Below, one piece after another: positions 45,897 to 51,998 of a DNA stretch of 51,998 nt. The translations under genes and the position numbers were made by a program. Numbering within the stretch: position 1 is the stretch's first letter; the number at the start of each line of letters is the position of its first letter. The notes under the pieces were generated by a model. That model worked only from the letters and a program-made list of their open reading frames with translations. It was not told the DNA's origin and did not search any database. Source of the DNA: Rhodopirellula europaea 6C (GTDB lineage: Bacteria > Planctomycetota > Planctomycetia > Pirellulales > Pirellulaceae); NCBI RefSeq assembly GCF_000338295.1, contig NZ_ANMO01000053.1, forward strand, positions 1 through 51,998, given 5' to 3'.

Positions 45897-45970
45897 GCAT
45901 CCGTAGCTCAATTGGATAGAGCATCGGTCTTCGGAACCGAGGGTTGGGGGTTCGAATCCCTCCGGGTGTA
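45897..45970 (+). tRNA. tRNA-Arg (anticodon TCG)
   Basis: A 74-base cloverleaf: acceptor GCATCCG pairs CGGGTGT with two G-U pairs; D stem GCTC/GAGC; anticodon stem TCGGT/ACCGA with loop CTTCGGA, anticodon TCG for codon CGA; T stem GGGGG/CCCTC with loop TTCGAAT; discriminator A. CCA is not encoded. The last 63 bases overlap the integrase gene on the other strand, marking it as the attachment site of the element to the right. Confidence 0.97.
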
Positions 45971-47269
45971 CTGATTGGCTTTTCCCAAGGCCTTTCCAGC
46001 CATCTCAGGCACGCAATCGTTGGCTTTCTTCGGTTTCTGCTGATCTGCTGATGGCCCGGCACTATCTACTGAGGTGCCCTCCTGTGTGCCCTCCAAATCT
46101 GTTGAGGGCACATTTGATGCTGGTTCATCAGCGAGGGCATCGAGGAAGTCATCCTCGGTGACGCTGAGGTAGTGGGTTTCTGCGATGGCTCCCGAGTGCC
46201 CAAACCAGTCGTTCAGAACGTGGTTTTTGTGCCTGCCCGATCGCTCAAGCTCTGTCCGCCTGCTGGCTCGCAATGCCATGAACGGCTTCGGGTAAACCGC
46301 AAGTCCAGCCCGTTCCACGATTTTGTTGTACGTGGTCCTCAAATTGGCTTCGCTGCATCGGTATCGCTGGATGACATAGGAATCAGCGGCACATTCCAGC
46401 CCAGGCCCCACAATGGAGAACAGAGCATCCAGCTCGGTCCTGACTTCACGGAACAGCGGCACAATCCGCGTTCCCTTCCCGTATCGCTTCGTCTTCGGTG
46501 CCGTGACTTTGAATCGTCCCCGGTTCCATTGAATGTCCGACCAACGCAACCGCAGCACTTCGCTCGGGCAACGCAGCCCTGCAAAGCGGCAAAGACCAAA
46601 GATCACTCGCCATTCCTGGTCAGGACAAGCTTCCATGATCGCGGTTGCTTGATCTGCTGCAATGAACCGGTTCTTACTCGTGTCGCTTCGCAGATCAATC
46701 TTCACCCCAACGAACGGGTTCGACTCGATCAGGTTGTCGTCAACTGCCTGTCGCATCATCTGACGGCAACGCTTCACGTTCTGGCCCGCGGTGTTCGGTG
46801 ACAACTTCGGCCCTTTTTTGTCATCAATCATCCACCGTTGCCACCGCTCAACATCTCCCTTTACCAAACTGCCAAGCGGAGCATCTTTTCCCAGGTAAGC
46901 CTCAAGGTGATCTACGGCCTGCCGATAGTTCTCCGGCTTTTTCCAGTCCGTCCGGCTTTTGATGTAGGCACGCATGAACGCCAACACAGTTCGCGGGAGT
47001 TCTGCACGTTGGCGAGCCTCGACCAGTCCATGCGACGCGATGCGATCATGGATCTCAAGCGGTAGGCGATCCAGCCAGTCAGCCGAGGACGGTGCTGGGG
47101 GGCGTCCACGTCGATGCTGTCCGACCAGGTGTTCGATGTGCTCCTTGGCCTCATTGGCTTGCTCTTCATTGAACTCACCCAAGCCGATGCGAATCCGTTT
47201 CTTATCCAGTGACAATCGCAGTCGGTAGTGATTGCGTCCGTCTCGTGCAACGTGCTCCAGGCTAGCCAT
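45908..47269 (-). CDS. int: Tyrosine recombinase (phage-type integrase) ending inside tRNA-Arg
   Basis: A 453-residue site-specific recombinase. An N-terminal arm-binding region (1-85), SAM-like core-binding domain (90-180) and catalytic domain follow. Catalytic residues are R233 in AGLRCPSE, K259/K261 in PKTKR, R334 in ALRASRRTEL, H358 in GHSGAI and Y367 in THYLSV. The usual first histidine of the HxxR box is Met331, as the box is divergent in planctomycete integrases (often NxxR). The last 20 codons lie within the tRNA gene, so part of the C-terminus is encoded by the tRNA's antisense strand. It points toward the junction, as in many tRNA-integrated elements. Confidence 0.93.
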   Translation of the reverse strand: MASLEHVARDGRNHYRLRLSLDKKRIRIGLGEFNEEQANEAKEHIEHLVGQHRRGRPPAPSSADWLDRLPLEIHDRIASHGLVEARQRAELPRTVLAFMRAYIKSRTDWKKPENYRQAVDHLEAYLGKDAPLGSLVKGDVERWQRWMIDDKKGPKLSPNTAGQNVKRCRQMMRQAVDDNLIESNPFVGVKIDLRSDTSKNRFIAADQATAIMEACPDQEWRVIFGLCRFAGLRCPSEVLRLRWSDIQWNRGRFKVTAPKTKRYGKGTRIVPLFREVRTELDALFSIVGPGLECAADSYVIQRYRCSEANLRTTYNKIVERAGLAVYPKPFMALRASRRTELERSGRHKNHVLNDWFGHSGAIAETHYLSVTEDDFLDALADEPASNVPSTDLEGTQEGTSVDSAGPSADQQKPKKANDCVPEMAGKALGKANQYTRRDSNPQPSVPKTDALSN

Positions 47270-47351
47270 TCGTTTTACCTCGCTTCTTGAATTTGGGTGG
47301 TTTCTATTTTAGATCAAGTTGACCAATCAATGCGCCTGTTTGCGTGATGGT

Positions 47352-47651
47352 TCATTTGATGCGGACAAGTGGCATGATCCCGGGCACCTTCTCGTCTGAC
47401 TCCCGGATTCGTTGGCATGCCAACTCAGCATCGGATTCATGAGTGACAATCCCGTCGGGGAGCGGAAGTAACAACTTCCCTTCCTCAATCAGTTGGATCA
47501 GAGTGGGGGGCATCACGTCGCCTTCCTTCGTCATCTGGTAGCGAGCGAACCCATTCTGTCGACCGTACCTGTCCTCAATGAGCTCCTGAAACTCATCAGG
47601 AGTCATGTCCGGCATGATCTCAGCTGCAGGATGGATTGGGAAATCGCTCAT
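47352..47651 (-). CDS. Small protein with ParB-like N-terminus, coupled to the HTH gene
   Basis: A 99-residue soluble protein. The first 24 residues (HPAAEIMPDMTPDEFQELIED) resemble the start of ParB-type nuclease domains, but the expected DGRxR stretch is absent, so it may be a truncated relative or unrelated. The ATG at 47651 overlaps the HTH stop as ATGA, making a two-gene unit upstream of int. An in-frame start 69 bases further up would lie inside the HTH gene. I do not recognise a function. Confidence 0.6.
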   Translation of the reverse strand: MSDFPIHPAAEIMPDMTPDEFQELIEDRYGRQNGFARYQMTKEGDVMPPTLIQLIEEGKLLLPLPDGIVTHESDAELACQRIRESDEKVPGIMPLVRIK

Positions 47652-50382: not shown

Positions 50383-50706
50383 TCAGAAAAACCTCTGTAG
50401 CCGGGCTGGCCTCCATTCAAGCAACCAACGCATTTCTAGTAGCCAGCGTAGCGGATCCAGAACCACTTCAGTGCAACCAGTCTGCATTACTGGGTGGTTC
50501 GTCGGGCACGCAGGCATCGCTGATGTCATCCCGTTCGCAACAAAGGGATCACGACGGTGGAGGCAAAGGCCTGTCGGGACGGCTGTAGGTTCCGTCTTCG
50601 GATCCTCGGCTACCTCCGTGTCGAACATCCCTACCTTCAAATCACAAGCCTGAAAACCGCCTGCCAGCACCGCGCTAACAAGACAAGCGACAAGTAGACG
50701 AGCTAT
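50383..50706 (-). pseudogene. Remnant of a small lipoprotein-like gene, start codon ATA
   Basis: On the minus strand, GGAGGGC leads into ATA (50704-50706) and then a signal-like segment IARLLVACLVSAVLAGGFQAC. It continues as an open frame to 50383 (DLKVGMFDTEVAEDPKTEPTAVPTG). The hydrophobic stretch ending in Cys looks like a lipoprotein leader, but there is no ATG or GTG at the proper place, and the lipobox FQAC is poor. Either the ATG decayed to ATA or this is chance. No other gene is seen in 49983-50863. Confidence 0.3.
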
Positions 50707-50863
50707 GCCCTCCGGGGTGATCCAGCGGGCTTTTTTCGTTGGTGCTCAGAAACGTCCCTGGAGTCATTACTCCGGGTTATGTCGTCTGTCACCTGTCTTT
50801 CCTCGAACATGTTCGAGGTTCCCAACCAACCTTTTTCCCGACAAAGAAGTTGAAGAGAAGCAT

Positions 50864-51991
50864 ATGTTGGACAACCATTTCCATTCAACAGACGCGGGAG
50901 TTAAATACCGCGATGTTACGGAAGAATTTAAGCGGGCTTATCCGAAGGCCTGGAAGAACCTCAACGCTAAGAATTGGCAGCTGGATCGGAACGCCAATGT
51001 AGCGATACTCTCGGGCGGAACGCCTTGGAGTGAAGAAGGCAAGCGTGCGAAAGAGTGCGGCATCCACCGCCGCGGTAAATCACGACAAGCGATGCTGAGG
51101 TACACCCATTACTGCAAGCAGCAGTACATGTGTGTCCGGTGTGCATCTCTCGTTTCACGCTACAGAGCCCAGCAACTGATGACCGCGTCCGAGAAGTTTG
51201 CGGAGCACCTGGGGACCAACCACTTGCGTCTCCAGACATTCACGCTGAAGCCGAACACGTTCCGCATCACTTCGGACACACAGGAATCGTTTCCTACGCA
51301 GGTCCGATTGTTGTCACGGTTCTTCGATCTACTTGGGAACTACCACAAGGAGCGTGGCGTTCGGTGGTTCGACAAGACGAAGGGCCGATCCCGGGAGAAG
51401 GAAGTAACGCTACTAGGCCCAACCGTTGGCTCGATCCATGTCGTACCTGCGTGTGAAAGCCGAGACCCTTACTCCCATGCCCACGCACACCTCGGTGTCG
51501 TGATGACGAAGAATGGTCAGAAGCGGAAGCTGAAGGCGAAGCTCGAGGAACTGTTCGCGAAGGCGAAGAACGATCTCAAGCTGAGCTACACACCTGATGC
51601 CGACAAGCCGGAGATCGTGCCGATCAAGAGGAACCAGGTGTTTGCTGATCGCAACAACATCCCGGAGCAGTTCAAGAATGCGTCTTGGGAATCATTCGAT
51701 CCGGACTTCTTAAAGAATGACACGCCTGAACAGCAGATGGCGATGAAAGCCTTCCACTACATGAGCCGACCGTTCAAAGCGAAGTGGTCTCCCGAAGGCG
51801 TCCTCGAAGCTCGACAGATGCTGGACATGATCGGCATGACCCCGTCACAGCTGCACCGCCGTTTCGGAATGCTCGATACGGTTCGGCAACAGCTTCCCGA
51901 TTCGCCGCCTTCCGATCCGGAAGACCGAACGCGACTGGCGAACTACGACCCAATGCTTGGTTGGAAGATCTACGAACCAGTCATCGGCTGA
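50864..51991 (+). CDS. HUH-type rolling-circle replication initiator (Rep_1-like)
   Basis: A 375-residue protein. A zinc-finger-like CX5CX2C (C84, C90, C93, in YCKQQYMCVRCASL) is followed by conserved Arg residues as in Rep_1 proteins. The first endonuclease motif is LQTFTL (123-128). The metal-binding HUH motif is YSHAHAHLGVV with H205, H207 and H209. Y299 in FHYMSRPF is the probable nicking tyrosine. A charged C-terminal part follows. The ATG at 50864 is used, with GAAGAGAAG upstream; a longer frame from 50705 adds 53 unlike residues. It would nick one strand at the element's origin. An IS91-type transposase is a less likely alternative, given the Cys motif and single tyrosine. Confidence 0.78.
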   Translation: MLDNHFHSTDAGVKYRDVTEEFKRAYPKAWKNLNAKNWQLDRNANVAILSGGTPWSEEGKRAKECGIHRRGKSRQAMLRYTHYCKQQYMCVRCASLVSRYRAQQLMTASEKFAEHLGTNHLRLQTFTLKPNTFRITSDTQESFPTQVRLLSRFFDLLGNYHKERGVRWFDKTKGRSREKEVTLLGPTVGSIHVVPACESRDPYSHAHAHLGVVMTKNGQKRKLKAKLEELFAKAKNDLKLSYTPDADKPEIVPIKRNQVFADRNNIPEQFKNASWESFDPDFLKNDTPEQQMAMKAFHYMSRPFKAKWSPEGVLEARQMLDMIGMTPSQLHRRFGMLDTVRQQLPDSPPSDPEDRTRLANYDPMLGWKIYEPVIG

Positions 51992-51998
51992 TTCGGCG

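Follow-up and report, generated by a model that had tools for sequence, protein, structure and literature searches.

Does a block of genes that begins at a tRNA gene and closes with a putative replication gene form one end of a mobile element, and if so, where is the other end and how would the element move? This question is raised by positions 45897 to 51998 of contig NZ_ANMO01000053.1 of Rhodopirellula europaea 6C. The whole contig (51,998 nucleotides, here called the window or C53) was the stretch of DNA under study. An earlier note on this sequence had described an element integrated in a tRNA-Arg gene, with a tyrosine integrase, a candidate excisionase (Xis), a repeat array, a DUF1580 protein, a ParB domain, a hairpin-bearing stretch and a rolling-circle protein of the HUH type. 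Each of these parts was located, the ParB domain with a weak match, and the anatomy of the tRNA and integrase genes together with the invariant motifs of the HUH protein supports a tRNA-integrated element with its own HUH-type protein. We give a probability of about 0.74 to the reading that the block represents the left end of a plasmid-like integrative element, in which the attachment site of the element (attP) lies in the integrase gene (int), excision would be driven by Xis and the circle would be replicated by the HUH protein. Judged from the sequence, an int gene that runs through its attachment site is the best-supported unusual feature of this element.

The right end of the element is likely on another contig

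The tRNA-Arg(TCG) gene, identified with ARAGORN at 45897..45971 on the plus strand, is the integration target and the left attachment (attL) side. The int gene lies on the minus strand at 45908..47269 (PF00589, E 4.9e-11; PHROG integrase, E 4.6e-34). Its stop codon is located inside the tRNA gene, in antisense orientation, and the tRNA antisense strand supplies the last int codons. The right attachment site had been reported as missing from the window, and this holds. The right end cannot be in the window, because the window is one entire contig of the 7.19-Mb, 273-contig assembly and is broken in a palindrome directly after the HUH gene (rep), 7 bases past the rep stop codon. The earlier note is corrected in that the window is the full contig and that a second tRNA end was found on another contig, C72.

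The earlier note had proposed a search for a second copy of the tRNA 3' half. With a 23-mer and up to two mismatches, only C53 itself and another tRNA-type site in C28 were found in the own genome. The last 14 bases of the tRNA gene (45958..45971, plus strand), in contrast, have a sole other exact copy in the 7.19 Mb, at G000:C72:15601-15614 (G000 being the own genome). A search for this 14-bp core with one mismatch gave no further site, and we estimate that about 0.05 exact copies would be expected by chance. To the right of the C72 core lies a terminator-like hairpin. To its left, a minus-strand frame passes through the core into a 66-residue integrase tail, which reads EYTRRVPHPSTNTLAKQ..ARGMANRKRGD. 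The int of the window reads ..NQYTRRDSNPQPS.. through the identical core, in the frame that matches the C72 tail.

About 6 kb to the right of the C72 core, C72:21773-24113 matches G009:C48:8552-10902 at 88%, and this stretch of G009 sits about 5.4 kb downstream of the same tRNA-Arg. The DNA flanking the same tRNA in G004 and G002 has no match to int. Based on the sequence of both contigs, the right end of the element is likely on C72. If all of C72 to the left of the core belongs to the element, the element is at least 21.6 kb long with its middle unassembled. This part of C72 carries DUF1501/DUF1800-, M56- and BlaI-like genes, which were named by eye. Several observations weigh against the assignment to C72. 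C53 and C72 are unjoined in the assembly, the C72 core comprises just 14 bp, and the synteny consists of one 2.3-kb stretch in one relative (G009). Moreover, the tRNA flanks of G002, G004 and G005 gave either no matches or short matches (43-114 bp) to C72.

A split integrase recurs in the family

Relatives were searched in 241 genomes of the window's own bacterial family, taken as Pirellulaceae. Int relatives were found at E<=1e-20 in 158 of these genomes. A search of the plasmid database with int gave no match, and in genome_contigs there was one match, 40% identical, in a Planctomycetaceae metagenome-assembled genome. The tails at the far attachment copies of C72, G001 (16-bp core) and G187 (14-bp core) are homologous. 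In tblastn the C72 and G001 tails matched at E 2e-16 and those of G001 and G187 at 3e-7, while no row was obtained for C72 and G187; for each of the three pairs, 0 of 1000 shuffles reached the pair score. A profile was built from the three tails, with the core as its first five positions, and matched 64 of the 241 genomes at E<=0.1, many of them weakly.

Among the matches listed, which were read by eye, 27 tail loci share a contig with an int that is no more than 50 kb away. All 27 have the same strand as int, and 26 of them lie on its upstream side. Only G075 deviates, with about 300 bp between int and tail and no tRNA found; this pair was set aside as a remnant. The 26 upstream loci include G190:C6:342721, which lies in a 478-aa frame 47 kb off and is probably not a tail, and G193:C156:9037, a second match with an internal stop.

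Twenty int/tail pairs, G149 among them, were tested automatically by their longest exact repeat (G001:C1, G187:C2, G189:C15 and G136 stood outside this test). The core was in the same reading frame in int and tail for 19 of the 20 pairs, the chance of which is about 1e-8 if the pairs are independent. In the odd pair (G191 C1:648 kb) the longest repeat lies elsewhere and in a different frame, although VPPQGL appears at the core in both frames. A tRNA gene was present at the int end of 19/20 pairs (8 Gln, 7 Arg and 1 each of Glu, Lys, Met and Asn), and the span from int to tail was 5.2-18.3 kb. For 18 of the 20 pairs the profile match does not begin before position 30, and so these pairs were not selected by the core residues in the profile. 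Since int and tail share the tRNA core in the same frame in 19/20 pairs, attP lies inside int. Integration, as in the Myxococcus phage Mx8, swaps the C-terminus of the integrase for residues read from the antisense tRNA.

Other loci fit this pattern less well and weigh against it. The tail of G201 is 440 kb from int, G219 has its tail on a different contig, and the stretches examined around several tails contain no int. G196, which has a related int, shows a 44-bp repeat and no tail. When about 80 kb of G201 and G219 was searched with the whole tRNA (short-query blast), no second tRNA copy was found. In G201:C3, int (61999-63120) and the tail with its matching tRNA-Gln core (503195-503290) are on the same strand, and their separation of 440 kb hints at a large rearrangement. 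The G207 tail was rejected as a remnant with broken frames.

Tails that lack a nearby int are also what one would see if the island were degraded and immobile, with int and rep as relics and the C72 tail derived from an older, different element in the same tRNA. A truncated rep on contig C201 of the own genome and an int remnant at the same tRNA in G005 fit this explanation as well. The int and rep frames in C53, however, are open over their full length. In addition, int matches PF00589 and is 94% identical to an environmental copy, and its frame continues in phase into the C72 tail. We thus consider a degraded island to be unlikely.

The HUH protein and its palindromes

The rep gene is located at 50864..51991 on the plus strand, its start being set by comparison with a homologue in the 36-kb contig IMGVR_UViG_3300037603_000145 (hereafter the IMG/VR contig). 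This contig carries an int that is 94% identical to that of the window (93% over 452 aa by blastp) and a Rep that is 48% identical. The window protein is a candidate rolling-circle initiator. The motifs G-P, I-H-x-V, HxH and Y..K are fully conserved among five aligned sequences (the window included; one of them is a C-terminal half), and the 48%-identical Rep of the IMG/VR contig also keeps the HUH and Tyr residues. We take HxH plus a Tyr with a following Lys to be the HUH endonuclease motif, and the N-terminal CxxC presumably corresponds to that of plasmid initiators. By motif, there is good evidence that the window protein is an HUH enzyme.

The label "Rep_1" that had been given to this protein is not borne out, as no family model matches it. 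Searches for a Rep_1/pC194-type profile match were negative, no credible match was obtained in Pfam, PHROG or NCBIfam (one PHROG row, E 0.34), and the PDB gave three rows with E 0.27 or worse, none of them credible. The lack of a family match counts against the main reading, as does the divergent protein of G219, which by eye keeps HxH and CxxC without the Y..K spacing. A single-sequence structure model reached a pLDDT (predicted local distance difference test) score of 39.8, too low for a comparison of folds. On the evidence of its motifs, the HUH protein likely adds an initiator family that is recognised by no model.

Homologues of Rep are present in 5 of the 241 family genomes, the own genome included, and the divergent G219 protein, found by motif, is a sixth (6/241). 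None was found beyond the own genome in a 392-genome sample of the phylum. With the window protein or small alignments as query, PLSDB, INPHARED, IMG/VR and genome_contigs gave no match, and the Rep of the IMG/VR contig as query matched only itself. Because the IMG/VR relative existed and was found only through int, these Rep scans are weak evidence of absence. The own contig C201 holds a second, truncated rep (L011, 4428-4964) that is 96% identical and begins just before the HUH motif, beside unrelated DNA. It is accompanied by two proteins of 296 and 262 aa with homologues beside Rep in G201.

Palindromes are found around rep and elsewhere in the genome. The palindrome ATTCGGCGAG-CTCGCCGAAT (G000 type) occurs with up to one mismatch at 10 sites of the own genome, on C53, C201, C2, C72, C136 and C252, and five of these sites, on C53, C201 and C2, are near element genes. 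As a border of the element it was rejected, because the copies in C72, C136 and C252 lie among chromosomal-looking genes. The palindromes near Rep vary by lineage (TTCGGCGAG.., ACGGGGAT.., GCCGGGGATC.., ACCGAGGACG.. and TGCCGGGTTTT..). With arms of at least 9, four of nine Rep loci (C201, the IMG/VR contig, G012:C22 and G198) hold 2-3 copies of one palindrome within 4-12 kb, compared to 1/47 control loci with at least two copies (each up to 12 kb and not matched for length or G+C). A single palindrome was present in the 6 kb of the window and in G012:C229, G201, G219 and G247; in G201, further near-copies were seen by eye, two of them right after rep. A palindrome lies 0-31 bp past the rep stop in C201, the IMG/VR contig, G012:C22 and G247. 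In the window, the first half of the palindrome ATTCGGCG.. lies at the rep stop codon (51991..51998, plus strand) and is cut by the contig break, with full copies at the equivalent place in C201 and the IMG/VR contig. No palindrome adjoins the rep stop in G198 and G219. The palindromes may be origins, terminators or REP-like spreading units.

These palindromes could equally point away from replication, to a transposase of the type associated with repetitive extragenic palindromes (REP). The HUH protein would then be a TnpA_REP-like single-strand transposase that spreads its palindromes, a passenger of the element instead of its initiator. HUH proteins with lineage-specific dispersed palindromes are described for such REP-associated tyrosine transposases (RAYTs) in PMC8266576 and PMC3733652. 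In agreement with this, the palindromes near our Rep are lineage-specific, in four loci one of them begins just behind the rep stop, and copies of the G000 type are found on other contigs. However, just 10 sites were counted in the own genome, the perfect palindromes have no obvious GTAG or CGTC tag, and the protein is unrelated to RAYTs by sequence tools. No transposase model matched in the Pfam, PHROG and NCBIfam searches, and the CxxC before the HUH motif resembles that of plasmid initiators. In addition, rep occupies a place near int that in other int relatives is taken by replication genes. A REP-type transposase is therefore quite improbable in our view.

Conservation of the block and its replication genes

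The order of the block was compared across relatives, as the earlier note had suggested. G201 has tRNA-Gln, int, xis and Rep; G219 has tRNA-Arg, int and Rep (with an apparent xis by eye); G247 has an int of another type, DUF1580 and Rep; and the IMG/VR contig has int, Xis, DUF1580 and Rep. Because int-xis-Rep or int-DUF1580-Rep recurs in these four, int and Rep seem to be one old association, and nested insertions are not favoured. A point against this is that most int relatives are without this Rep (158/241 genomes for int vs 5/241 plus G219 for Rep). Open reading frames (ORFs) beside int, read by eye, encode Prim-Pol-like proteins in G001 and G196 and a DnaB-like protein in G187.

We further analysed 118 proteins from 20 bounded relatives (L105, L160-L178), using ORFs of at least 170 aa whose ends lie 1.2 kb or more ahead of the core on the int side. 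The best 25 of 65 Pfam families included 6 AAA_25, 3 DnaB_C, 2 DUF3987, 4 N6_Mtase, 4 HsdM_N and 4 Methylase_S matches, and among the best 25 of 147 PHROG families the primase/helicase and DnaB-like families were at the top. From these gene contents, with RepA/primase-like and DnaB genes in place of the HUH protein, replication modules seem to be exchangeable between the relatives, as in actinomycete integrative and conjugative elements (AICEs). The HsdM_N and Methylase_S matches are accompanied by 2 SIR2_2 and 2 AbiEii-type AAA domain matches, and the elements may therefore carry anti-phage cargo. An AAA-ATPase module beside Rep in G201 and G219 was not kept as part of the element, because a similar module is found in C136 and C252 with no rep in the stretches read.

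The IMG/VR contig also allows the element to be read as a phage, which weighs against a plasmid-like nature. Here the block is followed by a 44-bp tRNA core, and beyond it lie tailed-phage genes: terminase (E 7e-20), lambda-type portal (4e-35), capsid (4e-12) and, by eye, a tape-measure-like gene. With the 94%-identical int, Xis, DUF1580 and the 48%-identical Rep beside these genes, our block could come from a temperate tailed phage, as the end that serves its integration and replication; the HUH protein would then start rolling-circle replication of the phage, and the late genes would lie past the contig break. The 44-bp core, however, separates int from the phage genes, and a second integrase-like gene (by eye) is located at the far end of the contig, the two ends of which show no overlap. 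The order in G001 is similar and reads as two tandem elements at one tRNA, and for this reason we favour two neighbouring elements in the IMG/VR contig too. Moreover, no structural phage family was found in the 118 proteins of the 20 relatives (among the same best-matching families), and no late gene was recognised among the searched ORFs of the block; on C72, the 15.6 kb to the left of the core showed none by eye, no family search having been made there. Taken together, a phage origin is improbable. Fragments of a second rep are also present on the IMG/VR contig (L190-L194), as is a P-loop ATPase that by eye is of the KAP type.

Further features of the block

Next to int, an ORF of 122 aa (47352..47720, minus strand) has no family match in Pfam or PHROG and shows 40% identity over 72 aa to the end of a larger protein of the IMG/VR contig. 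The candidate Xis, an HTH_17/excisionase-like gene (47648..47914, minus strand; E 2.8e-6), is 90% identical to the copy in the IMG/VR contig. It is followed by an array of 12-bp direct repeats at 47924..48034 (unit GATGTTTGAAGT, 9.2 copies, 94% matches); the exact unit was not found in the IMG/VR relative (L190). The DUF1580 gene lies at 48140..48562 (minus strand; Pfam, E 7e-15), and the 3' part of its ORF contains the palindrome CAATTCGGCGAGCCCTCGCCGAATTG (48202..48227). The product of 49290..49982 (plus strand) resembles ParB_N (Pfam, E 0.0036, below its cut-off; PHROG ParB-like, E 5e-8), and on these matches its identity as a ParB protein is weak but plausible. G012:C22 and two contigs of the own genome, C2 and C201, carry homologues.

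In the non-coding part at 49983-50863, folding was better than in 20/20 shuffles (z -3.1), and a perfect 13-bp stem with a 10-nt loop is located at 50099..50134. Terminator-like sites are rarer in the block than in shuffles (3 vs 6.6). Upstream of rep, a GC-rich hairpin followed by a T-rich run was seen by eye in 4/7 homologues (the window, L190, L013 and G201); L190 and L013 fold strongly, the window weakly. In G005:C9 (L064, 2608-3894) the same tRNA-Arg holds an int remnant of 96% identity, with the rest of the element missing. In G006:C1 (L062, 1792-4834), 45 bp of the 3' half of a tRNA-Arg gene are repeated 3 kb beyond it, which marks a small separate element or a remnant.

Discussion

We infer the following life cycle for the integrative element. 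The integrase would carry out recombination between the 3' end of tRNA-Arg and attP, a short core located within int. The circular form would have an int frame that continues past the core and ends with a tail, about 66 codons in length. Integration would leave the int half at the tRNA, where it ends in antisense-tRNA residues, and place the tail at the other end (C72). The Xis-like protein would drive excision, and the HUH protein would replicate the circle after a nick at an origin, which probably lies close to one of the palindromes or hairpins in the vicinity of rep. The ParB-like and DUF1580 proteins may help to maintain or regulate the circle. Exchange of the C-terminus would change the activity of the integrase and may act as a switch between the integrating and the integrated enzyme.

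Such an arrangement has precedents. The int gene of phage Mx8 contains attP and acquires a new 3' end on integration (PMC6070905); 112 int residues are replaced by 13, which lowers the activity, and attachment sites inside the cognate integrase gene are known from very few elements, according to PMC4701971. The element described here resembles Mx8 in having attP in a tyrosine integrase gene and an integrated int with a new C-terminus. Unlike in Mx8, the arrangement is found here in many small elements of one bacterial family, which use six types of tRNA as counted by amino acid. The integrases of Mx8 and of SSV in archaea likewise extend across attP (PMC4383910). The present case differs from SSV in that just the C-terminal tail beyond the catalytic domain is cut off.

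The earlier note had further regarded an integrated element that replicates autonomously after excision as a class unfamiliar in planctomycetes. Integrating elements with their own rolling-circle initiator have been described in actinobacteria as AICEs, which combine a tRNA-targeting int and xis with exchangeable replication modules, namely RepSA (rolling-circle), RepAM or Prim-Pol (PMC3218068). For planctomycetes or Rhodopirellula, the literature was searched, mostly outside subscription journals, for integrative elements, rolling-circle replication, genomic islands and prophages, and among the matches listed none dealt with such elements. The present element shares with AICEs the int at a tRNA attachment site, a candidate xis and replication modules that seem exchangeable. 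It differs in that its Rep matches no Rep model, that no FtsK-like transfer gene was found among the searched ORFs of the block or the families listed for the relatives (the middle of the element being unassembled), and that the host is presumably not an actinomycete. The HUH protein is similar to pC194/Rep_1 initiators in its HUH motif, conserved Tyr with following Lys and N-terminal CxxC, whereas it lacks a match to any family model and a credible one in the PDB.

All in all, the data point to a real integrative element that follows the logic of AICEs and carries an HUH-type protein recognised by no model. Its attP lies in int as in Mx8, an arrangement that recurs in the family. A wider reading is possible, if doubtful. 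The family would have a class of integrative elements that replicate and whose integrase C-terminus is rewritten at each integration, with codons of the antisense tRNA, as a built-in switch; in one branch, a new HUH family would recognise and spread private palindromes in the host genome. As the pattern was found in 19/20 pairs at six tRNA types, the rule is testable by comparison. Since the tail shows where such elements end, also when the assembly is broken in between, it offers a way to map mobile DNA in these bacteria.

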